Assembly: GCF_014279655.1 (NCBI RefSeq)
Contig: NZ_CP047946.1
Location: 2,170,001 to 2,234,000 of the forward strand
DNA from: Synechococcus sp. ROS8604
GTDB lineage: Bacteria; Cyanobacteriota; Cyanobacteriia; PCC-6307; Cyanobiaceae
DNA length: 64,000 nt
Reading direction: 5' to 3'
Shown here: positions 1,993 through 29,628 of the stretch, piece after piece
How the letters are laid out: the number at the start of each line of letters is the position of its first letter
Numbering within the stretch: the first letter of the stretch is position 1
Program-made: the position numbers and the translations under genes
The notes under the pieces: model-generated
Told to the model about the DNA's origin: nothing
Seen by the model: only the letters and a program-made list of their open reading frames with translations
Database searches by the model: none

Positions 1993-4068
1993 TTGAACAC
2001 GATCCATCGCGGCAGTCCCTGGCCCCTAGGCAGCACGATCACACCCCGCGGTGTGAATTTTTCTGTTGCGGCGCCAGCGGCCAATCGGCTCGAATTGCTG
2101 ATTTTTTCCGATGCTGAGGCAAAGGCACCCGAACAGGTGATTGAGCTGTCGGAGCAGCATCGCTCCGCCAATTATTGGCATGCCGAGGTCGAAGGTCTTG
2201 GTGCTGGGTGTTGCTACTGCTATCGGGTGTTTGGCCCCATTGAGCCAGGTGGCCATGGATTTAGGCCCGCCAAGGTGCTTGTTGACCCCTGCGCCCGCGC
2301 CATTGATGGCTGGAATGTCTATCAGCGTGGAGCGGCGACCGGCGCATCACCCAACTCCGACAGGTGCTTGAAATCGGTGGTTTCCGAGCGAGATGCGTTC
2401 GATTTCCAAGCCCATCCCCGGCCTCGCCATAGCTGGCAAGACACCGTGATCTACGAGCTCCACATCGGAGGGTTCACCAAACGCCCCGCAAGCGGTATCA
2501 GCCCCGATCGACGCGGAACCTATTTAGGCGTGATCGACAAGATCCCCTACCTAAAGGAGATCGGAGTCACCACGATCGAACTGCTACCGATCCAAGCCTT
2601 CGATCCCAACGATGCCCCCGCGGGTCGTGACAATGTTTGGGGTTACAGCCCTCTGAGTTGGTTCGCACCACATCACGAATACGCGGTAGGCGCGGATCCC
2701 CACTCCGCTCGAGACCAGGTGCGTGAACTGGTGGCGGCCTGCCATGACGCAGGAATTGAGGTGCTTTTGGATGTGGTTTACAACCACACCACGGAGGGCA
2801 ACCGCAACGGACCCACCCTGAGCTGGAGGGGGTTTGCCGATCGCAACTACTACCACCAGAGCGATGCGGGTGATTACATGGATGTGAGCGGTTGTGGCAA
2901 CAGCATTGCTGCCAACGATCCACTCTCCAGACAACTCATCCTTGAATCACTGCGCTGCTGGGCCATTGAACTGGGCATTGACGGCTTCCGCTTCGACTTA
3001 GGGATTGCTCTCAGCCGCGGAGAGAAGCTGAAACCTCTGGAACATCCACCCCTGTTTGAAGCGATGGAGGCTGATCCGCAGCTGAGTGAACTCAAATTGG
3101 TGAGCGAACCCTGGGATTGTGGTGGGCTTTACCGGCTAAGTGATTTTCCGGCCAAAAGGATTGGCACCTGGAACGGACACTTCCGTGATGCTTTACGCAG
3201 TTTCTGGAAAGGAGATGAAGGGAGCACCTGGGCTCTCGGACAACGCTTTCGTGGCAGCCCCGATTTGTACAACGGGAAAGCAGCCAGTCTTGGCAGCTCA
3301 GTGAACCTGATTACGGCGCACGACGGCTTCAGCCTCTTGGACCTTGTGAGCTTCAACAACAAACACAATCTGGCCAATGGTGAAAACAACCGAGACGGTG
3401 AGAACCACAACAACAGCTGGAATCATGGCGTCGAAGGGCCGAGCAGCAATCGCGCCATCCAGGCACTACGTCAGCGCCAACAACGCAATCTGCTCAGCAC
3501 CTTGCTGCTGAGTCGTGGTGTCCCGATGCTGCTGATGGGCGATGAAGTCGGGCGCAGTCAGGGAGGAAATAACAACACGTGGTGCCAGGACAGCCCTCTC
3601 AGCTGGATGATCTGGGGAGAGGATCACTGCGATCATGAATTACAGACCTTCGTGCGGCGCCTACTCGATGTGCGCCAACAACTTGCGAGCTTGTTCAATC
3701 CGATCCAGCCTCACAACGAAAAGAAACCACTCCGATCAGGAGATTCAGACAAGTTGTGGCGCCAGTGGCACGGAGTAGAACTCAGCAAACCTGACTGGGC
3801 GAATTGGTCCCACTGCTTAGCGATGAGCTTGCAGCAAGGACATCAAGGTGCCGTGCTTTGGATGGGCTTCAACGCCTACTTCAAGTCCATGCACTTCGAC
3901 CTGCCGGAAGCGGCCTCGCCATGGTGTCGCTTGATCGACACAGCATTGCCTGCTGGAGAAGATCTACCAACGCAAATCGAACGGTGGACGCCCTCTGGGG
4001 TTCCATTGGAGGCGCGCAGCCTGGTGGTGATGGTGGCTCAGGAGTATGGAGACCGGCTGAGTCTTTGA
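1993..4068 (+). CDS. glgX: glycogen debranching enzyme (isoamylase type)
   Basis: 691-residue GH13 debranching enzyme that hydrolyses alpha-1,6 branches of glycogen or limit dextrins in the cytosol. An N-terminal CBM48-like beta domain (WPLGSTITPRGVNFSVAAP) precedes the TIM barrel. All four conserved regions are visible: DVVYNHT near residue 260, GFRFDLG near 330 (nucleophile Asp), SEPWDCGG near 370 (acid Glu) and TAHDGF near 440 (transition-state Asp). The first in-frame start giving the family N-terminus is TTG at 1993. The gene ends four bases before the tRNA-Gly-derived repeat, so the island was inserted directly after it. Confidence 0.95.
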   Translation: MNTIHRGSPWPLGSTITPRGVNFSVAAPAANRLELLIFSDAEAKAPEQVIELSEQHRSANYWHAEVEGLGAGCCYCYRVFGPIEPGGHGFRPAKVLVDPCARAIDGWNVYQRGAATGASPNSDRCLKSVVSERDAFDFQAHPRPRHSWQDTVIYELHIGGFTKRPASGISPDRRGTYLGVIDKIPYLKEIGVTTIELLPIQAFDPNDAPAGRDNVWGYSPLSWFAPHHEYAVGADPHSARDQVRELVAACHDAGIEVLLDVVYNHTTEGNRNGPTLSWRGFADRNYYHQSDAGDYMDVSGCGNSIAANDPLSRQLILESLRCWAIELGIDGFRFDLGIALSRGEKLKPLEHPPLFEAMEADPQLSELKLVSEPWDCGGLYRLSDFPAKRIGTWNGHFRDALRSFWKGDEGSTWALGQRFRGSPDLYNGKAASLGSSVNLITAHDGFSLLDLVSFNNKHNLANGENNRDGENHNNSWNHGVEGPSSNRAIQALRQRQQRNLLSTLLLSRGVPMLLMGDEVGRSQGGNNNTWCQDSPLSWMIWGEDHCDHELQTFVRRLLDVRQQLASLFNPIQPHNEKKPLRSGDSDKLWRQWHGVELSKPDWANWSHCLAMSLQQGHQGAVLWMGFNAYFKSMHFDLPEAASPWCRLIDTALPAGEDLPTQIERWTPSGVPLEARSLVVMVAQEYGDRLSL

Positions 4069-4071
4069 ATC

Positions 4072-4119
<48 letters not shown>

Positions 4120-4178
4120 CCATAAATCGCCCAATCTCATTGCCGCCACTGACTTCTCAACAAGGAAATAGCCGTATG

Positions 4179-4200
4179 TGAGATGTTTGGTGAGACGTTT
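4179..4200 (+). repeat. tandem decamer near left end, possible integrase arm site
   Basis: Two decamers, TGAGATGTTT and TGAGACGTTT, are separated by GG. A closely related pair (TGAGACGTTT GG TGAAATGTTG) lies at 53462-53483 in the same orientation, just upstream of the integrase start. Matching tandem repeats near both ends of an integrated element resemble arm-type recombinase or excisionase sites. The function is inferred from position and repetition only. Confidence 0.45.
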
Positions 4201-4399
4201 TCCCGTCTAATCCCTTATCAGCACTAGAAAGGGGCATCAGATGAGCGAACCAAAGGAAGACCGTGAGACAGCAGTTAGGACCAGCGAGACGGCCGCTTAT
4301 GTGCCCGCTAGGGCCAGCACTAGGCTGGCCTTATTCAAAGGAAAGCCCTTTCCCTTGAATTAGATCCAACGTTATTCAAGGTTCGCCCCAGGGGGCTCC

Positions 4400-4993
4400 A
4401 TGCGGCGCGACGCCACCGGGCGCTACGAGATCACCAGCACCGCCACTGCCGCCTGATCCTCCTCTGGAGCTGACGGGGCCGCTGCAGGCACTGCACGAGC
4501 GGGCGCTGCTGACCTGCGGACGGCTTGACGGGATCTCCTCCCTGCTCCCTGACCCCGAGCTGTTTCTCTACGCCTATGTGCGGCGCGAGGCCCTGCTCTC
4601 CTCCCAGATCGAAGGCACCCAGTCGTCCCTCTCCGATCTGCGGCTCTTTGAGCTGGAGGAGGCTCCCGGCGTTCCCCTTGATGACGTGGTGGAAGTCTCC
4701 AGCTACGTGGCTGAATTGGAGCACGGCCTGGCCCGGCTGCAGGAGGGCTTTCCGCTCTCCTCCCGCCTGCTGCGAGAAATCCACAGCTGGCTATTGGCCC
4801 GGGGACGTTGCGCTGATCGACTGCCGGGGGAGTTCCGGCGCAGTCAGAACTGGATCGGCGGCACCCGGCCGGGCAATGCGAGCTTTGTGCCCCCACCACC
4901 AGGGCTGGTGGACGAATGCATGGCCGCGCTGGAAACCTTCATTCACGGCGGACACGCGGGAGAGAACGCCTTGCCGGTGCTGGTGCGGGTCGG
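4400..4993 (+). pseudogene. Fic-family protein, N-terminal fragment
   Basis: N-terminal half of a Fic/DOC (AMP-transferase) family protein. The ATG at 4400 starts MRRDATGRYE, then a frameshift near 4450 moves coding to the frame with the family segment LLSSQIEGTQSSLSDL and the later GEFRRSQNWIGGTRPG and ASFVPPPP. Coding similarity stops just before the catalytic HPFxDGNGR motif would appear, where the sequence becomes IS21-like. The gene is thus both frameshifted and truncated by a mobile element and cannot encode an active Fic enzyme. The open frame running on to 5399 is an accident of the junction. Confidence 0.75.
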
Positions 4994-5036
4994 GCGACAA
5001 AAGGGTCAGACCCGTGCTGGTGGGGTCCCGGAATCA

Positions 5037-5290
5037 TCAATGGGCGACAAAGCTCTCACCGCAGTGGATCAGCTGGCCGTAGGACCAACCGCTCCAGGCC
5101 AGGCGGTAGTGGAACAGCAGGTGCGGGAACGGCTCTCCCCGCAAGGTGATGACGACACGCTTGACCTTGGTGAAGTCACAGAAGCCGATCTCTCCGGGCT
5201 GATACGCCAGAGGGAACATCACCTCCGGCGTCGGGCCATGCAGAGATTTCCAGTGCTGCACCCGTCGCTGCAGGGTGCGTTTCAGTCAAC
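5037..5290 (-). mobile_element. IS21-family transposase (IstA) fragment
   Basis: The minus strand encodes about 75 residues of IstA-type sequence (HWKSLHGPTPEVMFPLAYQ, QPGEIGFCDFTKVKRVVI, HYRLAWSGWSYGQLIHCG), spanning the start of the integrase-like catalytic domain (first Asp in FCDF). Both ends of the gene and the partner istB are missing. It sits where the Fic gene is interrupted. Confidence 0.75.
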
Positions 5291-5351
5291 TCCAGTCCTG
5301 ATCTGGCTTTTGCTCCTGCAGGTGCTCCAGCAAGGTGGTGGGTGTCAGGGC

Positions 5352-5475
5352 CGGATTTCAGAAGAACTGGGTATCCACGTGATTACCCTCTACAAATAGA
5401 GGAAGACTTGTCGGTTGCAGAGGGAGGCGGTGCACGCATCCGAGAAGGACATTGACGTCTGGAGTACTGACGACA
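5352..5475 (+). mobile_element. IS3-family OrfA remnant
   Basis: The sequence closely parallels 42308-42404, which encodes the OrfA helix-turn-helix (ISAELGIHVVTLYNWRKTWR). Here the match begins at ISEELGIHVITLYK, a stop codon interrupts it, and a decayed continuation (VWSTDDKFLVL) follows in another frame. This is a decayed second copy of the same IS. Confidence 0.6.
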
Positions 5476-5670
5476 AGTTCCTAGTGCTGTGCCCTCCCAG
5501 ATCGTCAGAAGTCGCTCTGCGGTAATGCAGGCTGACCCTGGTGCGTTCAATCGCAAGGGTGCGCTCTACTCACCCACAGCACCCAGCAGCTGAGACAGCA
5601 GCCTTCCGGTGGGAGTGGACGCAGGGCTGATTCAAAGTGTGTCACGGTTGCTCTGGCCTGAGCTGCCCGC

Positions 5671-6785
5671 ATGGGGTTTGCTCGGTGGTATCGCCTCCTC
5701 CTTGTGCCCGACACCGCCTCTGCAGCAACCGATCTCGATCTGATCAGCCACCTCAAGGCGACCCCGGATGCCCAGATGCGGCGGGGCGTTCGCACCCCGG
5801 CCTGGTACCTGTTGCTGGTGGCGGTGCTCGGGATCCTGAGCGGTTGCCAGAGCCTGCGGGATCTGGAGCGCTTTGCTCGCCGTCACCACGGCACGCTCAC
5901 CAAGGCGCTTGGCCTTGAACTGCGGCGGCCCCCATCGGATTCAGCGTTCCGCTACTTCTTCCTGCAGGTGGATGTGGCGGCCCTGTGCGCGGCCATCCGT
6001 GATTGGACGATCGCCCACATCCCTTATGGTGCATGGGATCTCGATCAGCTGGTGTGTGACGGCAAGACCCTGCGAGGCTCGATCGAGACCACACCCGGCG
6101 GTGGTTAGGCGTTCATTGCCCAGGTGACGCTGTACTCAGCTGCCTTGGGTGTGGCGATCTCGCAGGCCTGCTACGCCATTGGCGCGAACCACGAGCTGGC
6201 AGTGCTGAAACAGTTGCTGGGCGAGCTCGACCTGGAGGGGGTACTGATCCAGGCAGATGCGCTCCACACCCAGAAACCGTTTTTCAACAGCTCACCGAGC
6301 AGGGGGCCGACTTCCTCCTGACGGTGAAAGCCAAAAAGAAGACACTGCAACGCCAGATCCGATGCCAGTTTCAGGGGAAACGCCATATCCCTGTTCAGGC
6401 CTGTGTTTTCGAGGAGAGTCATGGTCGTGTCATCAACTGGATCGTGGAGGTGATCGCCGTCGGGACCCGCGACGGCAAGACCTTGCGGCAGACCCATTTC
6501 TTCCTCACCAGCTTGCGCACAACCCCAGAAGCCATGCTGCAACTGGTGCGCGACCGCTGGAGCATTGAGAGCTGGCACTGGATCCGTGACACCCAGCTCG
6601 ATGAGGACGCCCATCGCTACAGGAGCAATGGAGCTGGGGCGATGGCGACGCTGCGGACGGCAGCCCTCAACCTGCTGCGACTGGGCGGCTTTCAGTCCAT
6701 CCGAGCCGGCATGCAGGCCGTAACTCACGACATCGCGGCGCTACTGGCGATGGCGACGAGAAAGCCAGAACCAAGCCCTAGTTAA
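5671..6785 (+). pseudogene. ISAs1-family transposase, inactivated
   Basis: A nearly full-length ISAs1-type DDE transposase broken twice. Segment one (5671-6108) holds the N-terminal domain and VCDGKTLRGS with the first catalytic Asp; it ends at a TAG after TTPGGG. Segment two continues QVTLYSAALGVAISQ to the second Asp (IQADALHTQKPFF). A one-base loss in a T run near 6283 shifts the frame to segment three (6324-6785), with RDRWSIESWHWIRD carrying the last acidic residue and a HRYRSNGAGAMATLRTAAL tail. Reading through these lesions restores one protein, so inactivation looks recent. Confidence 0.85.
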
Positions 6786-6787
6786 GA

Positions 6788-7140
6788 CTTTGAATCAGCC
6801 ATGTCCAGCACTGCCACCACATCCTTGGCCTTGCAGCGGCTGCCCATCCGGATCGCCAGGCAGAGGCAGCAGTTGTCGTCGATCACATTCAGGACATTGA
6901 GTCTGCGGCCATCAGCAGTAACGTCGAACTGAAAGTCCATGGCCCAGATATGGTGGGGATGCTGGGCGCTGTGACGCCTGACTGAGCCGTCTGCGGGCCA
7001 TGCCCGCTTTCTATTCCTGGGGGTAGGTAGACCGCTGCTGACCTTCCCCTCGCCAGAGCCGTTGCATCCGCTTGTGGTTCACGGTCCAGCCCTCCAGCCA
7101 CAGCAAACGGTAGACCATGCGGGGGCCCCAACTGTGAGGC
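6788..7140 (-). mobile_element. IS3-family OrfB fragments (integrase core)
   Basis: Minus-strand pieces in two frames: RMVYRLLWLEGWTVNHKRM and RLWRGEGQQRSTYP from the region before the rve domain, then IWAMDFQFDVTADGR and NVLNVIDDNCCLCLAIRMG with the first catalytic Asp. The frame breaks between them and the gene stops after the early rve domain. It marks the left border of the AT-rich synthase locus. Confidence 0.7.
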
Positions 7141-7238
7141 CTTGGGGTGGACGTTGAAACCAGGACCCAGGAGAATTCACACCTATTCGTAGACTTAACA
7201 ACCTAGTAGGACAACAAAACGAGTCGCAAAAAGCACCA

Positions 7239-9674
7239 CTAATCAATCATACTTGCAGAATGAGTCATTTCCGAATGAGATATGCATAACAATGGAATGC
7301 CATCTTCAGAGGTAACAATACCTTCATAATAGGCTTTGCTTGTCAAGCTATTGACGTCAATTACGCGACCACTTGCTATGTACTTACGACCAGCGACAGG
7401 TGCTTCATAAATGTCGACAACAAGGCGATTAGGTAATGCACTTGTCTGGTACAGCTCTCTAAGGATAGCCAAGCCCATTTGAAGAAGACCATCCAAAAGT
7501 GAAGGGTCCAAAAAGCCTTCTACAGATTGAGAAATACCCAACAGCTTAGATGTGCCATGAGACACTAACGTAGATAACATAATATTTGAATCAGGCAAGA
7601 TTATGGACGGGCTATTAATGACTCTGAAGACGCCATCGTGGAATAAGTACTTGTCATAAATTTCAGCTTGATCAATAATAATAGAACCATCTTGATCGGA
7701 CAGGCCAGAGGAAAGGGCAGAAAGAAGACCATTGCTTAGTTCCGGCTTAGAAATTTCCTGCACCTGTGTTCGGTAGGAGAGTCGCTGAGAATTAATATGC
7801 TTAAGATTGCATTCTAGCGAACGATCGACTCCCCTTGCAACTTCAAAAAGAAGTTCACGTGGTTCAGAGTTATCAAACACGATGCCAGACAACACTTCAG
7901 TACTAACCCGGATTATAGAATCACTTAACTGAAGAGATTTCGAGTTATTGACTCTCTGATAGGCCTCAAGAGCGAAGACGCAGGAAGCCGCTGCAGGCAT
8001 CACTGGACGACCAAATTTACAATGGGATTTCAGGTAAGGAAGAGAATTAGGATCAAGCCAAAACTTATAAACTTGAGAATCGCAATCATCCTTACTGGTG
8101 GTTGAAAGGGATAAAGCATGATTGCCTAAAAAAGGATAATTTTTCGATATAGATTCGATATCATGGTCGGAGCGAGTAAATTTTGAAGAGTCATAAAGAC
8201 CTGTGGTCACCTCAAGGGGAAGAATGCAATCCGTAGTAAGCAATGAAGCAATGCATTCTGCACCAACATCAAGTGGAATTGGAATTATTCCCTTTGCAGC
8301 AAAAGCCTCATTGACCTCCTTGGTAGCCATACCAGCAGATGCCCATGGTCCCCAGTTCATAGAGTTGACTTTGAGTCCAGGGTAGGAACGTGCTGAAAGC
8401 CAACTGCCTGCATTGATTAGCTCATTAGCAGAAGCATAATCAGATTGGCCAAAGTTACCAGTTTTACCGGCAATTGAAGCAAAATTCAGAAGCCTGACAA
8501 CTGGATGAGATTCAATAAGCTGGAAGGTAAGCTTCAATGCGTTGAGTTTAACTAGCAATACACGTTCAAAACTTTCTCGATTCTTTTTTGCTACCAATGA
8601 ATCCTCTATAATACCGGCTACGTTTATAATTGCATCAACTTTTAAGTCGCTTGCGGACAAAGCCTCTAAGACTACTTGATGAGAATTCGAATCAAGGAAA
8701 TCAACTTGAATATACGTTACCGAAGAATAGAGCTTTGACAAACGTTCGATTGTTGCAATTGCCTCCAAAGAAGACAGTATCTTTCTCAACTCCCTTTCAA
8801 TGATAGCCGGAGTAAACTTTTCGTCCGAGTCTCGATGAAGTTGAATCAAATGGGATCTTAGCTGGGGTACCGTAAAAGAAGAGTCGTACCACTTAGGCAG
8901 AGAGAGATGTGATCGGCCGGCGATAACCAAGGAGGTCTGCTTGGAGCCAATCTTTTCTAAAGCTGAGACAGCGATACCACGGGCTCCGCCGAGCGCCAAT
9001 AAGCACTCTGGATACGTGCAATGATCTAAACTCAGTGAGAAGTCTGAAATCGACTGATGTGGGGTTATGGTATGAACATGCAAACCAGACTTGTTAATAG
9101 TATACTCATGCTCGGGATCCTCAAGGGAGCAAATAAAATCCAAAAATATTAACGCATCGTCAGACTCAAATACATCACGGTTAATATCAATAACAGTTGA
9201 ATGTATAGATTGATATTCTGATACAACTGACTTAAGCATGCCCGAAAGTGCTGATATATATGTCAAGCTAAGGCGTGAATCTTTAAAAGAATCATCAACA
9301 GTAGAGCGTCGACCGAAATCACCATGACCATTATGAATGACAATTAAACGAAAACTTCTAGAGTCATTTACCATTGCAAACAAAATGGTACGTATATTAT
9401 CAAATACTGTCCAAAGAGAAGAAGCAGCATCTTTTGGTTCAAAATGCGCTAGTGCATTAAGGTCCTGTCCAAAGTCGTCTAAATGAACTATATAAGTGAT
9501 GTCATTCTTACTGCCTACTATAGTTTGACCGGAAGGCTGAAGAGCGTGATTTGCTAGATCAGGAGGAAGTGAGAATGATGAAGAGGAGATGGAGGCTTGA
9601 AATATCAGAGCTTGGGTTACACCATTGAATAGTTTTGAGTAGTAGTCCTGCTTATTCTCGGGAGCAAGTATCAC
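7239..9674 (-). CDS. ketoreductase-dehydratase part of the large lipid/polyketide synthase (-1 frame)
   Basis: 811 residues from a GTG at 9674, but the frame is open without ATG, GTG or TTG for 39 further codons up to the slippery site at 9791-9797. I therefore take it as the C-terminal part of the upstream synthase, reached by -1 frameshifting. Domains: a linker/KR structural part (1-225); KR with GGARGI at 229-234 and Ser400, Tyr413, Asn417; a double hot-dog dehydratase (about 510-800) with HxxxGxxxxP at His551 and the DxxxQ pair Asp728/Gln732. Both enzymes therefore look active. They would reduce and dehydrate the beta-carbon of ACP-bound intermediates. Independent initiation at the GTG is the alternative. 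Confidence 0.85.
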   Translation of the reverse strand: MILAPENKQDYYSKLFNGVTQALIFQASISSSSFSLPPDLANHALQPSGQTIVGSKNDITYIVHLDDFGQDLNALAHFEPKDAASSLWTVFDNIRTILFAMVNDSRSFRLIVIHNGHGDFGRRSTVDDSFKDSRLSLTYISALSGMLKSVVSEYQSIHSTVIDINRDVFESDDALIFLDFICSLEDPEHEYTINKSGLHVHTITPHQSISDFSLSLDHCTYPECLLALGGARGIAVSALEKIGSKQTSLVIAGRSHLSLPKWYDSSFTVPQLRSHLIQLHRDSDEKFTPAIIERELRKILSSLEAIATIERLSKLYSSVTYIQVDFLDSNSHQVVLEALSASDLKVDAIINVAGIIEDSLVAKKNRESFERVLLVKLNALKLTFQLIESHPVVRLLNFASIAGKTGNFGQSDYASANELINAGSWLSARSYPGLKVNSMNWGPWASAGMATKEVNEAFAAKGIIPIPLDVGAECIASLLTTDCILPLEVTTGLYDSSKFTRSDHDIESISKNYPFLGNHALSLSTTSKDDCDSQVYKFWLDPNSLPYLKSHCKFGRPVMPAAASCVFALEAYQRVNNSKSLQLSDSIIRVSTEVLSGIVFDNSEPRELLFEVARGVDRSLECNLKHINSQRLSYRTQVQEISKPELSNGLLSALSSGLSDQDGSIIIDQAEIYDKYLFHDGVFRVINSPSIILPDSNIMLSTLVSHGTSKLLGISQSVEGFLDPSLLDGLLQMGLAILRELYQTSALPNRLVVDIYEAPVAGRKYIASGRVIDVNSLTSKAYYEGIVTSEDGIPLLCISHSEMTHSASMID

Positions 9675-9748
9675 ATAATGGTGCCTTTTACTGACTAGAC
9701 ATTTCCCAGATCTCGGGGTTGTCAGTGGATAAGAGACACTATCAAAGT

Positions 9749-9797
9749 GGGATAGATGATCATGCCTTAATTCATCTATCCCGCCAACTACTTTCCC
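9749..9797 (-). promoter_or_regulatory. candidate programmed -1 ribosomal frameshift signal
   Basis: On the coding (minus) strand the KS-AT-ACP frame ends CCG GGA AAG TAG. The heptamer G GGA AAG fits the canonical X XXY YYZ slippery rule in the correct phase. Eight bases later a perfect 11-bp stem begins: GGGATAGATGA pairs with TCATCTATCCC across a 12-base loop. An SD-like GAGG lies 10 bases upstream of the heptamer, as in dnaX-type signals. Slipping -1 leads through 39 open codons into the KR-DH frame. The hairpin has no T-run, so it is not an intrinsic terminator. Confidence 0.82.
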
Positions 9798-12700
9798 GGC
9801 TGAGAAACCTCTGCAGCAACTTCACGATCAGCAGATCCGTTGAGAATAGCTGCAATTTGCTCAGAAACATCCCTAAGGGTTCTTAGATCTCGAGTGCCGG
9901 TTTGAATGCTTTGAATGGCTTCAGGAGAAACATCTGACAGTGTAGACATTAAACCTCCCATGACTTCAATTCTCTTGATCGAGTCAATCCCAAGATCAGA
10001 CTCAAGATCTTGATCGGGATCAAGCAATTCAATTGGGTAACCACTCTTCTCAGACAAAAGAGAAGTGAGCTGGGATAAAATGCTACCTGAGTCAAGGTTA
10101 CGGATTTTCGTTGATTCTGCTGCTATTGAACCATTTCCATTGGTAGGCGAAGGGACTTGAACCTCTACTGGTTGGCTGTGTTGAGGACCTGGAACAGGAT
10201 TGGTTAGAGTTGGAGATGGAGTTTGATGATGGATGACTCCTCCGTTGCCATTCGACTGGGATGAAGATGCGGAGGATTGAACAGGCTGTTTCTGGTTGCT
10301 GGAAGGGGTTACCGGAGTGGTGAAATGAATTGCCTCAGGTGTGGAATATGAAATGGCATCCGAAGAAACAGTCGGGTCAGAAAATGGTTGTTGGGTATAA
10401 ATAAAGTCAGGATTATCAAGAGAGGCAGAATGCTGTGGCGAGCCACCTAAAAATGCTGAAAATACTTGTGTCTGTGAATTAATCATCATACGTAGCGTTT
10501 CGTGGTATGTGCGAAATGCTTCGAGCCGAAGGCTGCTGAGCTGGCTGGACTGTGTGGGCTGGATGGGTTGGTTCATTAGGGCGACTTGGTGGTTGGAAGA
10601 GTGCGATTGAACAGATGGCGACAGAAGTGTATCTGGAATATTTTGAGCGGGTATATGCTCAATAAATGGCCTTGCAATCTCCGACAAAGCATGGTGCACA
10701 TTATGCTGAGGACTACTCTCTAACTTATATCTAGATTTCCATGAATGGGCACCATTAACGTAGTATAAGTAGCCAGGCCTTTTAGAAACTGCATTGGAAA
10801 CTCCTACTGAAGAGTGGTTCAAGTATAGAGACTCAGCAGGCTGAAGCATTGTACTCAGCCTAGTCCAGTTCAAAGGAACTCCATGACTGGCAATCTGCAT
10901 GATAGATCTCAAGAAATCCTCTGTTCCTAGAGGACCGTCGAGAGAAACTACATTTGAATCAAGAGAATCAATAGAAGATCGAACCAATTTCGATAAGACT
11001 TTCTTTGGTCCTACTTCAATAAAGAAGGAGCAACCAAGGGCTTCAGCCTGTTTTGCAGACTCAATGAAGTCAACTCCCGAAGTCATATGTGATCTGATGA
11101 GGTCTCTAATGTTCTCCTTAGTAACAGGACCGGACCGAGGGGACGTGCTAAGAATTGACTGACGTGAATGTGGAAGGTCAGCCTTAAGCTCCAAGGCACC
11201 CAAACAATCCGAAAAGATAGCATTGCATTGCTGCATCAAAACAGAGTGGAATGGTTGGTTGGCTTGCATCCATTGGGTTGAAACACCACCCCTTAAACAA
11301 GTAGCCTCAATAATTTCAAGGTCAGAGCGCGGACCAGACAAGACGATTTGTGTTGGCGAATTGATATTGGCCAATGTAATTGAGTGTGACGCGACCGAAC
11401 TTAGTAATTCATTGCCTTGATCAGCCGAGCAGAACAGGACAAGCATGCCATAGCCGTCCTTTTTGAAATTGCTGATAGCTTGGCCACGAGAATGCAGTAA
11501 TTCGACTAGCTGTCTGTCTGACATCCATCCCGTCGCATGAAGGCTTACAAAATCGCCAAGACTATGACCAAGACCCAATGACCATGGGATTTCAAGATGA
11601 TTAAGAATTTCGAGGTATGCGACCTCAGTAATCGCTAGCAATGATTGTTTCAGTTCAGCAGCAGGAGCCTTGCCCTTCTCTTGTTTGCAAAAGAGATAAT
11701 GATCAAGGACGTCTGCGCGTGACAAGTAGTCCGGTATAAGTTGCATCAGCAGCTCATGGGAACGAAGTGGCATCGCTCCCATGCATGTTGTGCCCATTCC
11801 GGGATAATCAGAACCCTGGCCTGGAAACAAAAGAGCAATCTCGTCAGCATTCTTGGATTTAATCTGAAGTCCAGCCGATTCTGACTGACAAACGAGCCAC
11901 TGACGCATCATGTCAGAATAATCTTTCTTTCCTTGCAGAAGGTCGTGAACAATATCCAGCTTGTCAGCAATATCCGACTCACTGAGATCAACTAAAATGA
12001 TGGCATAGTCTTTGGCAACGCTACGAAGGTGAGTAGAGATATCTTGGCTCTGAATTGTGTCTGCAATAAGTTGATTCACAGATGTGGCATACCCATTCAG
12101 AGCGCACTCCTCCTCAATCTGACGGGAGTGGGTCAATGCTGAATGGATAGATTGAACAAGGCTGCCACCATCAGCTGTAAAATAAAGAAGCCTGCATCCA
12201 CAGGCAATCTTGGGCTGTTCGATTACTTCTTCAGCATCTACAACAGGTTCCGGTACATACTCCTGCAATACAACGTGAAAGTTGGTCCCCCCAAATCCGA
12301 AAGCGCTGACGCCAGCAGTCCTAAGTTTACATGACTCATTTTTGAGCCAAGGAAGATTTCCAGTCGGTAGATAAACAGCCTCAGAACTTACCACTTCGTC
12401 AATATGTTCTTCAACTCTGCTATGGATTGGTATTGACTTATTTTTCAAGGCTAGTGTGGCCTTCAGAAGACCCGCTAATCCAGCAGTACTTTTTGTATGA
12501 CCAATCAGAGTTTTCACTGAACCCACCGCACAGTGAGAACTCTGACTTCCCTTGGCTTCCAGGAATGTAGTCAACGCTCTGATCTCGGATCGATCGCCAA
12601 CAGGTGTACCTGTCCCATGAGCCTCGTAGTAACCAAGCATGGCTGGATTCACGCCAGCGTCCTCATAGGCTCGGGCGAAAGCCTGAACCTGTCCCTGATG

Positions 12701-15619
12701 GGACGGGGCAGTCATCGTCCTGCCACGACCATCGCTCGAGCTGCCAATGCCCTTGATCACGGCATGGATTGAATCTCCAGCAGCTTCTGCATCTTCGAGC
12801 CTCTTGAGTACCAGGATTCCAGCACCCTCACCAAGAACAATGCCATCAGCTTCATTGGTAAACGACTTGGCTTCACCAGTTGGGGAAAGGGCCTGAGTTT
12901 CCGAAAAACAGAAATAGGCAAAAGGAGACTGAAGCGTGTCAATTGCTCCGACAACAGCCATATTGACATCACCCTGTCTCAGCTTACTAACGGCGACGTC
13001 TAAAGCAGCCAGAGAGGATGCACATGCAGCATCAACAGTACAATTGGTGCCACCAAAATTAAATCTATTTGCAACTCTACCTGCCGAAACATTTGGAAGA
13101 ATACCCGCAAAACTATCACTAGTCCACTTTGGCAGCAACTGTTCAACTTGAGGATGGCTGTTCAAAAGAGGAGCCAGTTCCGCCTGCATTACATAGCCTT
13201 GACCCAATTCGCCAAGGCCACCGCTATAGCCAAGGATGACGCACGTAGATTCACGATCATATATACTATCTTCAAAATAGCCTGCGTTGTGAAGAGCGTC
13301 TTTCACACAAACAAGTGCTAATAGCTGGGCTGGATCAATCGAAGACAAGGATTGCGGAGGAATACCAAATTCAATTGGATCAAACTGAACAGCATCCAAG
13401 AAGCTGCCCCACCTAGAATGTATTTTATTTGGATCCTTGGTATCAGCTGAATAAAAGTCGCCAATGGACCAACGCTCTTCTGGAATCTCCTTGATCTGGC
13501 CTCGAGCACGAACGACCAAGTCCCAGAATTGTTCAGGGTTGTTAGCGCCAGGCAGCTTGCAAGACATTCCAATGATGGCGATATCCAGATTCCCTCTATA
13601 AATTTCATTAGCTTCACGAATAGAGGCCCGTTCAGTAATTTCGAATTCCGCCGCCTTGCTTGGTGTTTCCAAGCCTGCCTTAATGCTCTCATGCAATTGG
13701 TGAATGGTTGTCTGGTTATTAATCAGACAGACAGCTTCACCAAGCATGTACATTCCTAACTCAAGTTGATCCTCTTCTGTAACCTGAAGCAAACCATTCT
13801 CACCTCGCTGCAAACCCTTGGAAGCCAGTCTCAGGCGTCCTAAAATTAATCGATCCAACTGATTAGAAATCTCCCTGACAGGAACCTGAGATCTGACCAA
13901 CTCATCACGCTTGGCATTGAACTCTCGAGAAAATGCTGTATCGGCGCATCTGCTTTGATGCCCTGGAGATGTCTCTAAGAAGACAGTATTGGTACATTCG
14001 ATCGTAACCTCCTGATATGTTGGAGTTATCGCTTTATCTTGAACAATTTCACGAGTAGCAAGATAAGCAGAGCCAACAAGTAACCCACACGTTGCACCAA
14101 CCTTGGCTAGATCGTCTATCATATATGCAGCAAAAGATGCAGAAGTCTGATCATGAATCCCCCCGGCCAGCACCAAACAGACCTCTCGACCAACAGCAGG
14201 ACTTTGCTCAAGCACAACTTTGATAGATCGTTCCCAAAGATTCAGAGAACTCAAGGGACCTATATGTCCGCCGCATTCACGTCCTTCAAGGATAAAGTCT
14301 CTCCAGCCTTCTTTTATGAATAACTCGAGCAATTCAGGAGTGGGTGCATGAATAAACACACGTAAATTCTTAGATGCAATCTCCTTCGCTTGTGCTGGAG
14401 TCCCTCCGGCGAGGATGCAAAAACTTGCACTAGAATTCTTCAGAACGGAGATTTGAGATTGCAAATGTGTTGAATCAATAAATCCAAGTAGTCCAACTCC
14501 CCAAGGTAAATCTGGAACCAATTCAGCTGTCTTTACCAGAATTTTCTCAAGCGCTTCAGCCGATAGCATCGCGGCAGCGATGGTAGGCAGAGCACCACCT
14601 CGCGCTACGCTTGCTGTAAATTCCGCGTTATCACTAACGCGTGACATTGGGCCCTGAATTATTGGATATTTAACACCAAACTGGTCTGCAATTGTATTCG
14701 GTTGTCGTGTAGCCAAACCGCGAGATACCCGAATAGACCTATATGCAGAAATAACTCTGCCGAGAGTGCAATATTTTATACAGAATTCCTTGGCAAGATC
14801 AATACCCTCCCCAACAGGAAATATCCACTCAGACTTCCATCTTGCAATTTCGTTTAACTCAGAAGCATCAATACTAATTCCAAATAAATACCCTGGAGCA
14901 CCTTTTCCAGGCAACGAGACACATCTCACTTCTTCATTATTATCCAAGGCTGAGCGCAAAACAATGGACTGCCTTCCATTGACTCTATTCAGTAACTGCT
15001 TGGTCCTCAGTGGCAGATAGGAATCATGAAGTAGCAGTGTTTGCTCGTCAAGTAGAATGGAATGTATTCCTTGACTGTTAAGTGCCGAGAATGAGAGTAG
15101 CCCAATTGGCCCTGATACAATCATTCTACAATCATTAAGGCAACTCAAAGCCTTTTGGAAAAGAATATATTGAGAATCACGTCCGCAGAGTGCGCCCGAT
15201 TCGTAACCCTCGATGATCACACAAGGATCATTCTGTTGATCCCAGGGAGACTTGGCATACTGCTCTACATCCTGAATGGAGCCCAGCCTGGGAATTGGAT
15301 TCAATCCATTCAGTTCAACAATCTGTTCACGGCTGACTCGATGCCAAGGGATAATGACTCTCAATGATCTGGTTAACGCTGAGCCATTCAGTTCAGCGAT
15401 CGCCTGCAACGCCTTAGCTGTCTTGAAGTCTTTGCATGAGACAGCAAAGATGCCTGTTATGAATTTGGCCAGGCATTGATTCCAAAGCTCCTCAATATGA
15501 TCTTCAAAGCCAAAGGTCTGCAAACATACAGATGCTCCAGAAGCTACAGCCTTCTCTGTGGTCTTGATCCAGTCTCCAACGGGGCGAACCGTCACCAAAA
15601 CCTGATTGGTATTATTCAT
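9788..15619 (-). CDS. multidomain synthase, NMO-NMO-KS-AT-ACP part
   Basis: 1,943 residues from the ATG at 15619 (a TTG 42 bases upstream is also possible). Order: a degenerate nitronate-monooxygenase/PfaD-like barrel (about 1-310); a second such barrel with QGPMSRVSD, GRECGGHIGP and LAGGIHD (about 320-590), the expected enoyl reductase; KS with Cys866 (VDAACASS), His1001 (EAHGTG) and His1041; AT with GHSLGD Ser1353 and His1458; a Pro/Ser/Gln-rich linker (about 1590-1840); and ACP with DLGIDSIKR Ser1880. The layout is that of PUFA-synthase-like secondary lipid synthases, in which KR and DH follow the ACP. With the -1 shift it would give about 2,793 residues. Product unknown. Confidence 0.9.
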   Translation of the reverse strand: MNNTNQVLVTVRPVGDWIKTTEKAVASGASVCLQTFGFEDHIEELWNQCLAKFITGIFAVSCKDFKTAKALQAIAELNGSALTRSLRVIIPWHRVSREQIVELNGLNPIPRLGSIQDVEQYAKSPWDQQNDPCVIIEGYESGALCGRDSQYILFQKALSCLNDCRMIVSGPIGLLSFSALNSQGIHSILLDEQTLLLHDSYLPLRTKQLLNRVNGRQSIVLRSALDNNEEVRCVSLPGKGAPGYLFGISIDASELNEIARWKSEWIFPVGEGIDLAKEFCIKYCTLGRVISAYRSIRVSRGLATRQPNTIADQFGVKYPIIQGPMSRVSDNAEFTASVARGGALPTIAAAMLSAEALEKILVKTAELVPDLPWGVGLLGFIDSTHLQSQISVLKNSSASFCILAGGTPAQAKEIASKNLRVFIHAPTPELLELFIKEGWRDFILEGRECGGHIGPLSSLNLWERSIKVVLEQSPAVGREVCLVLAGGIHDQTSASFAAYMIDDLAKVGATCGLLVGSAYLATREIVQDKAITPTYQEVTIECTNTVFLETSPGHQSRCADTAFSREFNAKRDELVRSQVPVREISNQLDRLILGRLRLASKGLQRGENGLLQVTEEDQLELGMYMLGEAVCLINNQTTIHQLHESIKAGLETPSKAAEFEITERASIREANEIYRGNLDIAIIGMSCKLPGANNPEQFWDLVVRARGQIKEIPEERWSIGDFYSADTKDPNKIHSRWGSFLDAVQFDPIEFGIPPQSLSSIDPAQLLALVCVKDALHNAGYFEDSIYDRESTCVILGYSGGLGELGQGYVMQAELAPLLNSHPQVEQLLPKWTSDSFAGILPNVSAGRVANRFNFGGTNCTVDAACASSLAALDVAVSKLRQGDVNMAVVGAIDTLQSPFAYFCFSETQALSPTGEAKSFTNEADGIVLGEGAGILVLKRLEDAEAAGDSIHAVIKGIGSSSDGRGRTMTAPSHQGQVQAFARAYEDAGVNPAMLGYYEAHGTGTPVGDRSEIRALTTFLEAKGSQSSHCAVGSVKTLIGHTKSTAGLAGLLKATLALKNKSIPIHSRVEEHIDEVVSSEAVYLPTGNLPWLKNESCKLRTAGVSAFGFGGTNFHVVLQEYVPEPVVDAEEVIEQPKIACGCRLLYFTADGGSLVQSIHSALTHSRQIEEECALNGYATSVNQLIADTIQSQDISTHLRSVAKDYAIILVDLSESDIADKLDIVHDLLQGKKDYSDMMRQWLVCQSESAGLQIKSKNADEIALLFPGQGSDYPGMGTTCMGAMPLRSHELLMQLIPDYLSRADVLDHYLFCKQEKGKAPAAELKQSLLAITEVAYLEILNHLEIPWSLGLGHSLGDFVSLHATGWMSDRQLVELLHSRGQAISNFKKDGYGMLVLFCSADQGNELLSSVASHSITLANINSPTQIVLSGPRSDLEIIEATCLRGGVSTQWMQANQPFHSVLMQQCNAIFSDCLGALELKADLPHSRQSILSTSPRSGPVTKENIRDLIRSHMTSGVDFIESAKQAEALGCSFFIEVGPKKVLSKLVRSSIDSLDSNVVSLDGPLGTEDFLRSIMQIASHGVPLNWTRLSTMLQPAESLYLNHSSVGVSNAVSKRPGYLYYVNGAHSWKSRYKLESSPQHNVHHALSEIARPFIEHIPAQNIPDTLLSPSVQSHSSNHQVALMNQPIQPTQSSQLSSLRLEAFRTYHETLRMMINSQTQVFSAFLGGSPQHSASLDNPDFIYTQQPFSDPTVSSDAISYSTPEAIHFTTPVTPSSNQKQPVQSSASSSQSNGNGGVIHHQTPSPTLTNPVPGPQHSQPVEVQVPSPTNGNGSIAAESTKIRNLDSGSILSQLTSLLSEKSGYPIELLDPDQDLESDLGIDSIKRIEVMGGLMSTLSDVSPEAIQSIQTGTRDLRTLRDVSEQIAAILNGSADREVAAEVSQPGK

Positions 15620-15661
15620 TACCTTGTGCTCAATAGAGTTTATTTTAGCCCATCCAACCAA

Positions 15662-16888: not shown

Positions 16889-16939
16889 ATGCATGTCTCC
16901 TCTGAAATCGTGTTAACAGCAGGCAGCTCTTTTTTGACA

Positions 16940-18226
16940 ATGCTACAAGACATCTTAAAGATTATTGATGAGTACTGCGCAAATAATGACATCTTTTACG
17001 ACGAAACGCTTTCTGCAGGCACTCAACTCATTGCTGATCTTGGACTTACATCAGTTGATTTTGTTTCTATTTTCCAAAAGTGCCAAGCTCTCGGGAATGA
17101 ACGACTGTCCTTCATAGAACTAGTTATGCCTATAGAGGGTCAATATGTGTCTGATCTAAAGATAGGAGAGTTGAGCGATTATATCATTGAGCAGTCGGCA
17201 CTTCGTCCTCCAGCAAACGAGCAACGCGCAAGTGTTGACAATGGATATTCAGAGCAAACAGTGAACGACAGCAAATACAGACGCTCCCTTTTTGAGATAA
17301 AACAGTTTGACGAATTTAAATCACTAATTCAAAAGCCAACATTTTCGGACCAAGGTCCTGTCGCAACAGACTATCAACTCGTTTTTATCCTGTCCTCGCC
17401 CCGATCAGGATCAACCTTGCTACAAAGGATGCTTGATCAACATCCAGATATCGAGTCTCCTGAAGAGTTGCATCTTCTTCATTACGACACATACGCGCAG
17501 CGGCACGCAGCCTTGAGTCAAGCTGAAACTAGGCATCTGCTTGGTGGAACTGCTCGACTGCGCGCAAGAATCAATGGAATCAGCATGGATGATTCCAATC
17601 GTCTTGAATTGAAATTTATCGGTGCTGAAGAACCCGCTCTGAACTTCTTCACTGAAATCAACAAGAACTTCTCAAAACAATATCTTGTTGACAAGACTCC
17701 ATCTTACGCCTATAGCAGAGAAACACTTGAAAGAATTTCTACACAGTTTCCTCTCGCACGGTTCATTTATCTTACACGTCATCCGTCAGCGGTTATTAAA
17801 TCGTTGATTGATTCGCAGTTGCAGGAAATCATTCCATTTGCACGTCGCTATTCGGGCGATACATCCACGATTCCCGAGATGATCTGGGCATTGTGTCACG
17901 AAAATATTCAGTCCATTCTTCCCGGCATTAATCTCAATCGCCTGCATTATGTGAGCTACGAAGAGCTTGTCATGAATCCTGAACAAGCCATGACTTCAAT
18001 CCTAAATTTTCTACATCTACCTTTTTACCCCGATTGTGCTAATCCATATATCGAAGGTCAGAAACAGCAGATTGAAACTAATGAGTATGCTGGCGACTTG
18101 AAGTTCTTTCTTGAGAATAGGATCGTAAACGATCGTGCTGAGATATGGAAAGCCTTCCCTGCTCTTCATTCGCTATCAAACGTGAGCCAAGGACTGATGA
18201 GCGGCATTCCTGGATATGAGGGCTGA
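16940..18226 (+). CDS. acyl carrier protein - sulfotransferase fusion
   Basis: 428 residues from the ATG of MLQDILKIIDEY; an ATG at 16889 would add 17 residues. The first 75 residues are an acyl-carrier domain with phosphopantetheine Ser38 in DLGLTSVD. A linker leads to a PAPS-dependent sulfotransferase: 5'-phosphosulfate loop ILSSPRSGSTLLQ near 150 and 3'-phosphate motif YLTRHPSAVIKS near 280. Carrier-linked sulfotransferases are known from curacin (CurM) and cyanobacterial olefin synthases, where sulfation of a beta-hydroxyl precedes decarboxylative release. Here no thioesterase is fused, so sulfation of a carrier-bound chain is the inference. The next gene starts 4 bases after the stop. 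Confidence 0.85.
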   Translation: MLQDILKIIDEYCANNDIFYDETLSAGTQLIADLGLTSVDFVSIFQKCQALGNERLSFIELVMPIEGQYVSDLKIGELSDYIIEQSALRPPANEQRASVDNGYSEQTVNDSKYRRSLFEIKQFDEFKSLIQKPTFSDQGPVATDYQLVFILSSPRSGSTLLQRMLDQHPDIESPEELHLLHYDTYAQRHAALSQAETRHLLGGTARLRARINGISMDDSNRLELKFIGAEEPALNFFTEINKNFSKQYLVDKTPSYAYSRETLERISTQFPLARFIYLTRHPSAVIKSLIDSQLQEIIPFARRYSGDTSTIPEMIWALCHENIQSILPGINLNRLHYVSYEELVMNPEQAMTSILNFLHLPFYPDCANPYIEGQKQQIETNEYAGDLKFFLENRIVNDRAEIWKAFPALHSLSNVSQGLMSGIPGYEG

Positions 18227-22351: not shown

Positions 22352-25300
22352 TCAGTCAACCTGATTGAAGATCTGCTTGGACGTGGAATCAGCGTTGGCC
22401 AGGATCGTGAGGATCGTTCGGCTGTGTTCGAGCAGAAGTTGATGTCCCAGCACAGGATCCTGCCGCACAACACCTGGGGCAGGTGACGCGGAGGTGCTGG
22501 GCATGGTCTGGTTGCCAGAGGATGTTAATTCCTCACTGACGGGAGTCGCAGAGTCAACTCCCTGGTCCAAGGTCTGGCCGGAGAACTCATGTCGGTTTCC
22601 GGCAGGTGGAGGCCCGGAGTCCGATGACACGGATGCCAGGAATTCCCGTAGCCCGACTGAGTTGTACTTTGGGATTTCAGAAAGAACGGGGACAGCCGCA
22701 GCAGGCCTAGTCACGGTGGCCAGGCCGGTCCTGTATCGTTCCACGAAGAGACCATCAAGTCCCACCAAATCAAGATCAAGACCAGAAGTCCAGAGAATCG
22801 CTACAGACTGGAGGAAGGCTGTCGTACTGTCTTTTCGCGAGGTGCCCAACGAAACTGCGACAATATCAGAATAGTCAGAAAGCGCTTCTTTAGTGTAGCT
22901 GGTTAGTGTAGTGTTTGGACCTAGTTCTACAAAATACCTTGCACCATCGTTATACATATTTCGAATGGTTTCCTCGTACCTGACAGGATTAAGCCACTGA
23001 TCAATGAAAATCTGAGTTCCTTGCTCATAGTCATTGGGGTAAGGCTGTGTAGTCAGGCAACTGTATATAGTTGCGTGATCTGGTTCGAACTGTATTGAGT
23101 GAGGAAACTCACTGTAGAGCTTGCGATGCGTTTCTGCTCCTTGCTTGAAATAGCGTGTGTGATAAGGACGTGTCAGTGGGGTTGGCAGCAAGGAGCCTCC
23201 AGCAGCAAGCACCTGCTCTTCCAGTTCCTTGCTAAATGCAGCCTCAGAAAAGACAATACGCTGCGAACGACAATTATCGGAAATTAAGGACCACTCAGGC
23301 CGACGTTTGAGGATCTCTTTGAGCTGAGTAGTATCAAGTCCAGAAATGGCAAATGTCGACCCCTTAGGAAATTCATCAATAGAATTCTCATTAGAAAAGA
23401 ATTCATGAATCTGCTTCACCCGAGTCTTTAAGTCGTCTTGATTTTTCATCGTGGCAAGACTTCCTGAAAGCATCACTGCATTTGATTCACCCTGACTATG
23501 CCCAACAACCTGATCTGGTCGCAAGCCTATCCGAGAAGCGATTTCATAGAAAGACATCAGGCAAGCGGCAATGATTTGCGTCGCCGAGTCCTGAGCGTAG
23601 AGGAGCTCCATTCGCTTAACATTGGCGGTTTGAGTACAGCTCAGATCAGCGTTCGGCATACAAGTAACCAAGCCGAGTGGTATGTCACGATCCAGCGCTT
23701 CATCCATAAAATTATACCAATAAGAAAAGAGATCAATATTATTTGTCAGATCACTGAGCATCTCAGGAGCTTGAACTCCTTCACCTGGAACCAGAAATGC
23801 AACTTTACCGCGTGATTTGACGCACTCAGAATAGATGAAATGGCGTCCACGATGACTGGATGTTGAAACATTCCCAGCTAACCAGGTCGAGGCATCCTGC
23901 AGACCTTCTCCGAGTTTCTTGAGAGAAGAAGCAAAAATAACTAGCCTGACCGATACCTCGGAGGACTGATCATGGCCATGAGGGGTGCTGAATAGGACCG
24001 CTTGGTGGATCGCCTCAACATCAATGCCAGCCATCAATTCCTGCAATTCTGAACGGGAGGTTGCCGCTAGAAAGATGGCCCGACCAGTAGTTGTATAGCC
24101 ATGGTGGCGATACTGGAGCATGCCACGGTAGGTTCTTCCAGATGAGTCGTTGTCGGAACTCAGGCCTGCATCATCAGAGGGCGCTTTTGATCCTGAGGCT
24201 GGATATGGGAAAAGGACGCTAGGTGCTGGATTTTCAAGGTTAGGAGCTATAAACTCCTGAAGTATCAAGTGACCATTAATGCCTCCAAAGCCAAACGAAT
24301 TTATGGCGGCAACACGCGGCTTTACTGGAGAATGGAACCAACGTCGAAGTGTGCGGTTGATATAAAAAGGTGTGGAGTGGTCAGCAACAGCCTCCAAGGG
24401 ATCCGGACAAATTGAAGGGGGAATCAATTTGTTCTGAAGTGCGAGTGAGATCTTGATCAGACTGGCCACTCCAGATGCAGGGATCGTATGGCCTATCAGT
24501 GATTTAATAGATCCAATAGCAATAGTGGAAAGACCACGGTGACAATCAGCAAACACTTCAAGCATCGATGAAAGCTCAGTGTTATCTCCATGAGGAATTC
24601 CCGTTGCATGAACTTCGACCAATGAAACATCTGAAGGTTTAATATCACATTTTTCGTACGCCCTCTTCATCGCCGCGACCTGCCCCTGTCGATTGGGGGC
24701 TAAAAGTCCCTCACCTTTTCCATCACTGGCCAAGGCAACCGAGCGAATTACAGAATAGATTGTATCGCCAGACTTTACGGCATCTGACAAGCGTTTCAAG
24801 GCAATAAAGCCTACTCCTTCAGAGAGAAGTGTCCCAGATGCGGACTTCGACATCGGGAATATTCCCTCCTCCGACAAAGCATTAATTGTGCAGAACAATT
24901 GATAAATAGGAAAGTTCATCGTAGCCTGCACACCACCTACCAGCATCAGATCGGCATCACCGGCATCCAGTTGCTTGATTGCATGATCCACAGCAATCAT
25001 GCCTGAAGTGCAGGCACCATCCACAAGATAGTTAGGGCCAAGCAGACCAAGCCTGTTTGCAATCGTTCCGGAGACTACATTGGATATAAGGTTTGGTGAA
25101 ATTGCTGGATCAGCAACCAACTCATAAGTTGAAGAAAGCAGAGAGCGGAGTTGCTTCCTCCGCTCCCCTTTCAAAACTCCACCTACTGAATCCGCAAGAA
25201 CGTCAATGAAATGCTCCATAATCATGCCGTTCATCAGCGCCCCGACGATCCCTCTGTGAGGGTGGTCACCCATGCCGACCACCACACCTGTCCGCTCATG

Positions 25301-28644: not shown

Positions 28645-29628
28645 TCAGGCGTAGCCAAGTTGTGCTTCGATATCTAAGACTAATTCAAGGAGTGAGTGAT
28701 TCCAATCTTGTAAACGCGAAATAACTGCCTCGCTACTAGACCTCTCAATATAATAGCGAGTAAAGTTTGATCGATCATTTGAAGTTAGGTAGGTCCTGAC
28801 TTGTTCGAATGAATATTCCTTTCTGCGCATCGGCCTAAATTCAGGATTAGTAATAAATTTTGGATCATTGCCACATGGAGCCATACGAGGTCCAAAGAAG
28901 GCATATGGCGAATTCTCTGGATGGAGCATTTCGTCGATACTTCGTTCGTCAGTCGACACTCCTAACCACTCGCAGATTTGAGGAAGTACTGAATGTGGCT
29001 CAATCAGAATAGACTCACCCTTGACTGTAAGAAAATTGGACGGAGGTATAATGGAACGAAACTTTAATATACTCTTATGAGTAGCATACCACATTAAAGC
29101 ATAGTTATCTTTAACAAGTGGATGTCGGAGACTCTTGCGCTCACCTTGGTTTGAATCACGATGTTCAAAGAACTCCTTAAGTGACTTAGAAGAACCTACG
29201 ACACTCCGAGTAAGATGGATGAATTTGGCTTTGGGATAAAATTTGAAAAGTCTTATCATTCGATCAATGGACCGAGTATTTCCAGGCGATTTCTCAATGC
29301 ATAGCTTGGGATCATGCGCTACACACAAATAATCAAACAATTCCTTAGTAGATAGAGATCTATGATTGGCAAGCCACATCCAAGCACGGCTACAGGCTGC
29401 ACTATCTTGTTTGTTTTCGTGAACCTCTGCAATTGCTCGCAACAGTCCACTAGGAGCATAACGACATTGAGTAATATTAGATTTACTTGAAAGAACATGC
29501 TCAACATTATCGCGCCATAACAGATGTAACTCCGGAAAACAATAAAGCTGGGGATGTTGTCCAATTATAGACGATACAACGGAAGAAAAGGAACGAGGGG
29601 GACTTAACAGGAAGATAGGCTCACTCAT
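28645..29628 (-). CDS. sulfotransferase
   Basis: 327 residues. PAPS-binding P-loop-like motif FLLSPPRSFSSVVSS at residues 6-20, PELHLLWRD behind it, and 3'-phosphate motif FIHLTRSVVGSSKSL near 137. Predicted to transfer sulfate from PAPS to a hydroxyl of a small molecule or lipid. It lacks a carrier domain, unlike the fusion at 16940, so it may act on a free or different position of the product. The start overlaps the upstream stop in ATGAGTGA (8 bases), showing translational coupling. Confidence 0.85.
   Translation of the reverse strand: MSEPIFLLSPPRSFSSVVSSIIGQHPQLYCFPELHLLWRDNVEHVLSSKSNITQCRYAPSGLLRAIAEVHENKQDSAACSRAWMWLANHRSLSTKELFDYLCVAHDPKLCIEKSPGNTRSIDRMIRLFKFYPKAKFIHLTRSVVGSSKSLKEFFEHRDSNQGERKSLRHPLVKDNYALMWYATHKSILKFRSIIPPSNFLTVKGESILIEPHSVLPQICEWLGVSTDERSIDEMLHPENSPYAFFGPRMAPCGNDPKFITNPEFRPMRRKEYSFEQVRTYLTSNDRSNFTRYYIERSSSEAVISRLQDWNHSLLELVLDIEAQLGYA

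Follow-up and report, generated by a model that had tools for sequence, protein, structure and literature searches.

A candidate programmed −1 frameshift signal between the ACP and KR domains of a PfaA-like synthase from Synechococcus sp. ROS8604

Programmed frameshifting in bacteria is known mainly from dnaX, prfB, insertion sequences and phages, and the dnaX signal combines a slippery heptamer with an SD element and a stem. According to the pertinent passages of PMC4066793, the product of the dnaX shift is the short form in E. coli and many bacteria, but in others it is the long one; the signals of the IS911/IS3 group consist of an X XXY YYZ heptamer accompanied by an SD-like element or a downstream structure, the shift there giving the long product. 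The gene described here, found in a 64,000-nt stretch of Synechococcus sp. ROS8604 DNA (the window), resembles dnaX (tau/gamma) in that one gene is predicted from its sequence layout to give two products with a shared N-terminal part. It differs from dnaX in encoding a megasynthase, in the heptamers of the gene family (G GGA AAG, C CCA AAA, C CCT TTT) and in the occurrence of both topologies within Cyanobacteriia. Unlike IS911/IS3, it is no mobile element, and the parts to be joined are enzyme domains, not transposase parts.

As an enzyme, the window synthase shares the KS-AT-ACP-KR order of PfaA-type PUFA synthases (TIGR02813), from which it is set apart by an N-terminal NMO and a C-terminal DH. 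The TIGR02813 cut-off of 1010.1 bits is exceeded by two fused relatives, G042 (1237.1 bits) and L154 (1165.2 bits); the halves of the window gene, scored apart, fall below it (zero-frame ORF, 552.9; −1 ORF, 157.9), and we file the gene only as PfaA-like. Synthases in two parts have been described: in the Type D and Type H "split pfaA" clusters, parts of pfaA lie on two gene products, with the KR of Type D on the second (Shulse and Allen 2011; PMC3098273), just as the window synthase has its parts in two frames and its KR in the second. That article describes split genes, and the word "frameshift" is absent from its main text; the main text of PMC3711429 has "polyketide" once, for a polyketide cyclase. 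In the open PMC literature, judged mostly from search listings, we found no report of frameshifting in a polyketide, fatty-acid or PUFA synthase. For the conserved signal at 9749-9811 (minus strand) of the window, we regard programmed −1 frameshifting, with two enzymes predicted from one gene, as the best explanation, at a probability of roughly nine in ten.

Layout of the window gene and its putative signal

The zero-frame ORF (9791..15661, minus strand) encodes, by translation and Pfam, NMO - KS - AT - ACP and corresponds to the predicted short product, of 1957 aa from a TTG or 1943 aa from the ATG at MNNTNQ. Its Pfam matches are NMO, ketoacyl-synt N and C, Acyl_transf_1 and PP-binding, the N-terminal NMO domain being a PfaD-like enoyl reductase. 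The −1 frame (7239..9821, minus strand) has 860 open codons and stays open for 850 codons past the heptamer; both KR (residues 353-494) and DH lie in it, with Pfam matches to KR, adh_short and PKS_DH_N, and it aligns to positions 1858-2363 of the PfaA model. The initial annotation had described a KS-AT-ACP frame followed by a KR-DH frame; Pfam confirms these domains, while the N-terminal NMO had been overlooked. Each frame has recognisable catalytic motifs, DAACASS, GHSLGD and GIDSIK in the zero frame and YASANE in the −1 frame, which we take to be those of KS, AT, ACP and KR, respectively. A slip is predicted to join both ORFs into a long product of about 2793 aa with the junction peptide QPGKVVGG.

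The zero frame closes with the codons CAG CCG GGA AAG TAG. The slippery heptamer G GGA AAG (9791..9797, minus strand) thus lies in phase, with the stop codon TAG (9788..9790, minus strand) directly behind it and an SD-like GAGG (9808..9811, minus strand) 10 nt upstream. After a spacer of 8 nt (9790-9783, minus strand) follows a perfect stem of 11 bp with a 12-nt loop (9749..9782, minus strand), whose arms are GGGATAGATGA (9782-9772) and TCATCTATCCC (9759-9749); in all these elements the letters agree with the initial annotation. Starting at the last base of the heptamer, a 52-nt piece has a folding energy of −18.2 kcal/mol (z −3.71; 1 of 200 shuffles equally good); for a 78-nt piece with the heptamer included, z is −2.07 (6 of 200 shuffles equally good). 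A strict pattern for the 16S 3′ end, with presumed last letters, had 0 matches in the organism's own genome. Measured against what characterises a bacterial −1 frameshift site, the locus has an X XXY YYZ heptamer in zero-frame phase, an SD-like element 6-17 nt upstream and a downstream structure, a −1 product that is encoded and conserved from the motif onward, and a motif conserved beyond its peptide by codon test and phase counts.

Elsewhere in the window, a second KS-AT protein (1099 aa; 22352-25651, minus strand) is encoded about 7 kb upstream on the same strand, and sulfotransferase-family ORFs lie at 16889-18226 and 28645-29628. Together with the synthase, these possibly form a lipid cluster.

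The joint among relatives

Relatives were found by searching whole genomes with the zero-frame ORF or its NMO portion and by NMO alignment in named genomes; a search for related loci with the window KR-DH protein as query gave no match, but alignment of the NMO domain succeeded. They span cyanobacteria, Proteobacteria, Actinobacteria, Planctomycetota and Acidobacteria. Few genomes carry the gene: it is present in 8 of 300 genomes in the window's family and in 10 of 217 in the family of G815; at class level 51 of 388 genomes match, mostly through KS only. Once 28 loci without a joint (presumably for contig ends, failure of the ACP pattern or no KR match behind) and 4 duplicates had been dropped, 91 loci were kept: 28 from Cyanobacteriia (window included), 51 others and 12 without NMO. 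One relative (G411) lies in several frames in its assembly, and another (G600) stands outside the main count, its joint having been read by hand and its A10 tract, which the string search missed, counted by eye. For the tree, 78 of 80 proteins passed the length filter (L130 is absent), and in the protein search the best 120 of 2,439 matches, ranked by similarity to the window, were examined.

In G030 and G049, the two relatives whose joints were read first and whose identity to the window is 45%, GGGAAAG is in phase and KR-DH lies in the −1 frame. Among all 28 Cyanobacteriia genes (window included), 24 carry an in-phase G GGA AAG in the linker between ACP and KR, and the remaining four an in-phase C CCA AAA AAA (CCCAAAAAAA). 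In-phase GGGAAAG occurs at 25 sites in 1,196 linker codons versus 1 in 61,052 other codons (Fisher p 2.5e-42, a value overstated because the genes are related), and out of phase at none in the linkers of the 28 genes. The initial annotation had proposed asking whether homologues have KR-DH fused or split and whether the heptamer is conserved. The same split and heptamer are indeed found in 18 relatives: in all 19 split genes, the window among them, GGGAAAG is in phase, KR-DH is in the −1 frame and the zero frame stops 0-12 codons past the heptamer. Nine further genes are fused, five with an in-phase GGGAAAG and four with CCCAAAAAAA, and in each of them the −1 frame closes 1-8 codons past the heptamer, so a slip would truncate the protein. 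Slippage would therefore produce the long form from split genes and the short form from fused genes, like dnaX, and the occurrence of both topologies argues, as in dnaX, for selection for two products. The conserved trait would then be the two-product output, not which frame encodes it. This conservation supports the programmed −1 frameshift interpretation first put forward for the window, and the accompanying idea of a short/long ratio gains support from the in-phase heptamer and early −1 stop that the fused relatives retain.

Two loci depart from the common pattern: a fused gene (L086, from G087) has two in-phase GGGAAAG heptamers eight codons apart in its linker, and the locus of G600 (L078) is split at an A10 tract in place of GGGAAAG (8593-8626), with KR-DH in the −1 frame, and groups with non-cyanobacterial sequences in the tree. 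The window clade (window, G436 and G426) shares the GGGAAAG heptamer, though a long branch (1.33) sets it well apart from the other cyanobacterial NMO-KS synthases; that branch weakens the case for a single origin of the window-clade heptamer.

Stimulators were compared across the 42 loci with a linker heptamer. The parts of PMC4066793 that treat these heptamers place G_GGA_AAG, when stimulators are present, in the top three for efficiency in E. coli and count C_CCU_UUU as a shift-prone motif. Scored by criteria taken from the same source, an SD-like motif stands at stimulatory distance in 35 of the 42 loci versus 7.1 expected from other positions in the same ORFs, a count reached by 0 of 200,000 simulations; it is present in 22 of 24 genes of the G GGA AAG group and in 8 of 11 of the C CCT TTT group. 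Its absence in G049 and G819 counts against the frameshift reading there. In downstream folding, 17 of the 42 loci, but only 6 of the 24 with G GGA AAG, reach the 5th percentile or lie below it, and G030 folds at 0.0; this weakness in the G GGA AAG group likewise counts against the frameshift reading. In the window clade, 32 of 33 cells of the stem are paired, two pairs having changed on both sides, versus 42-61% in slid controls; the covariation value, from three sequences only, is matched by 57 of 500 shuffles. Over the 40 codons from the heptamer, the −1 frame of window-clade pairs gives pN/pS of 0.57, 0.46 and 0.49 with a third-position excess; extended to 130 codons, the comparison gives 0.62 and 0.45. 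For three other pairs, compared over 25 codons, the values are 0.34, 0.39 and 0.62. Values near 0.5 suggest modest coding constraint in the −1 frame from the heptamer onward.

Outside Cyanobacteriia, 11 of 51 relatives carry C CCT TTT in phase at this linker, followed at once by a −1 stop: Bosea, Competibacteraceae, Rhodobacteraceae, two Micromonospora, Rubrivivax, Neptuniibacter, Pseudomonas, Frigidibacter, one Burkholderiales and one betaproteobacterial MAG. Elsewhere this heptamer is in phase 3 times in 134,654 other codons, and the codon test gives C|CCT|TTT a geometric mean chance of 0.003 per gene (11 genes). CCT accounts for no more than 11% of the Pro codons in 10 of the 11 genes, and TTT for no more than 11% of the Phe codons in 7; the Micromonospora keep CCT TTT where CCT is 1-4% and TTT 5-11% of their own amino acid's codons, and in L152 both codons are common. 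Each member has a stem of roughly 10-12 bp about 5-6 nt downstream, two with an internal mismatch. Aligned in the register of each sequence's own fold, ten pair positions are paired in 108 of 110 cells versus 35-57 after sliding; nine of these positions show exchanges on both sides, some of them from the two Micromonospora, whose stem differs throughout. On the tree, which holds 10 of the 11 carriers, C CCT TTT requires two changes. None of the scored heptamers was found in 37 of the 51, including two Obscuribacterales MAGs, and the device is therefore not universal; two of the 51 (L116 and L158) are split without a scored heptamer. CCCAAAG in L155 and GGGTTTA in L172 are outside the scored list, and for the in-phase A7-type heptamers of L133, L136 and L173, scattered on the tree and with an SD-like motif in one of three, we claim nothing.

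Competing explanations of the joint

Annotation pipelines call separate KR-DH proteins. Such a protein could come from an internal start used through reinitiation or translational coupling, the heptamer being incidental. The window offers sites for this. A GTG at 9672..9674 (minus strand), residue 50 of the open −1 frame, is its first candidate start and a rival initiation site, and the first ATG lies 414 nt past the stop, at about residue 150; since both GTG 9674 and the ATG are ahead of the Pfam KR match, the initial annotation was mistaken in stating that KR-DH is preceded by no start codon in the −1 frame. The annotated starts of two relatives fall on the GTG position. The zero frames of G395 and G248 close with TAATG at a conserved PRYxM, and reinitiation could therefore add to the KR-DH supply there. 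A normal, separate KR-DH start in homologues had been named as what would speak against frameshifting: no shared start emerges, the starts of the 14 annotated KR-DH relatives being scattered over implied residues 42-195, while in some relatives reinitiation is possible. The first candidate starts in the other two members of the window clade lie elsewhere past the stop (GTG at 270 nt in G436, TTG at 393 nt in G426), the coding pattern begins at the heptamer, and reinitiation leaves unexplained why fused relatives keep the heptamer in phase. We consider this explanation unlikely.

A domain-complete synthase that appears split may also be a broken gene, through a true frameshift mutation or an assembly error in the letters at issue, GGGAAAGTAG as assembled. 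The identical split and heptamer recur in independent genomes from several families, no stops interrupt 1957 and 860 codons, and pN/pS is below 1 in the −1 frame. The ending QPGK followed by a stop is shared by G436, G426 and, among the best 120 of 2,439 proteins, at least 10 protein clusters, one of them with 40 member sequences. Of the same 120, 44 have lengths of 1,800-2,140 aa; GK stands within the last 16 residues in 27 of the 44, the background along them being 0.033 per 16-residue stretch. Being ranked by similarity, they are no random sample. A broken gene is accordingly a very improbable reading.

Equally little weight falls to the view that the heptamer is a by-product of a conserved Leu/Pro-Gly-Lys (or Pro-Phe) linker peptide. 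LGK or PGK and PF do recur as peptides at the site, but the codon choice is fixed: GGA AAG is used in 24 of 24 genes, GGA making up only 10-45% of Gly codons, and given the amino acids, own-gene usage puts the geometric mean chance of G|GGA|AAG at 0.029, about 3% per gene. Nor would a peptide, which in split genes would be a C-terminal tail, explain an SD-like element and a stem. Slippage of RNA polymerase instead of the ribosome, suggested by the A10 tract at the G600 split and by A9-10 tracts in the same linker of NMO-less PfaA-like synthases (long A tracts are slippage-prone, as in Thermus dnaX), is most improbable for the window: GGGAAAG and CCCTTTT have no long homopolymer, keep one phase in the linker and come with ribosome-type stimulators; it may well apply to the A-tract members.

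Under programmed −1 frameshifting, ribosomes would arrive at G GGA AAG and be held there by the SD-like contact and the stem, while the P- and A-site tRNAs re-pair on GGG AAA. The shifted share would read through VVGG into KR-DH and the remainder would end at TAG, so that the window gene would supply a short NMO-KS-AT-ACP enzyme beside a long one extended by KR-DH. We infer that slippage takes place in vivo and that both forms are used in one assembly. The short/long ratio would then set the KR/DH dose per KS-AT-ACP assembly and, with it, the extent of reduction per extension round.

A-tract loci and the wider synthase family

Loci without NMO were chosen to serve as negative controls at the linker, a use that was dropped, as their linkers carry A-tracts. 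We presume these loci to be HglE-type; three that were checked (L216, L197 and L225) exceed the PfaA cut-off with 1776.7, 1655.5 and 1361.4 bits, and no HglE model is among the matches listed for them. They share the PfaA-like KS-AT-ACP with the window synthase, and differ in having no N-terminal NMO and a homopolymer instead of a heptamer. In 32 such PfaA-like loci (L192-L202, L206-L225 and L040), the linker after the ACP has an A10 tract in 22 and an A9 tract in one; 14 of these 23 tracts sit directly behind GGAGGTG, and the longest run elsewhere in the same ORFs is mostly 6-7. The frame mostly stays open through the tract, and slipped frames stop early. In L197 (G163) and L201 (G148), the zero frame ends 15-16 codons past the tract; the +1 frame has 271 and 242 open codons, respectively, and the +1 piece of G163 aligns to PfaA positions 1757-1978, ahead of KR. 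L225 (G048), a split synthase of the PfaA subfamily without NMO (5401-9348 and 2906-5629, minus strand), has an A8 tract with a zero-frame stop behind it; its KR and DH lie in the −1 frame, which is the window layout. Within one genus, L210 (G142) has A9 in frame and L197 (G163) A10 out of frame, and tract length may therefore flip the topology. These loci point to recoding at the same joint in the wider synthase family, polymerase slippage or tract instability being the alternatives for them.

Taken over the family, we think it moderately likely, from the sequences compared, that the joint after the ACPs of PfaA/Hgl-type lipid synthases, heterocyst glycolipid synthases included, is a recurrent recoding switch. 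It would have at least four sequence solutions (G GGA AAG, C CCA AAA AAA, C CCU UUU with a stem, and an A10 tract) in cyanobacteria, Proteobacteria and Actinobacteria and in either topology, would provide a fixed dose of ACP-terminated beside full-length synthase, and would thereby help to programme the reduction of each chain-extension round. If this is true, the enzyme encoded by lipid synthase genes whose annotation now stops after the ACP is longer than annotated, and heterologous expression from single constructs has missed the natural mixture of short and long forms. The ratio of KR-bearing to KR-less chains would then offer a testable handle on which rounds iterative synthases reduce.
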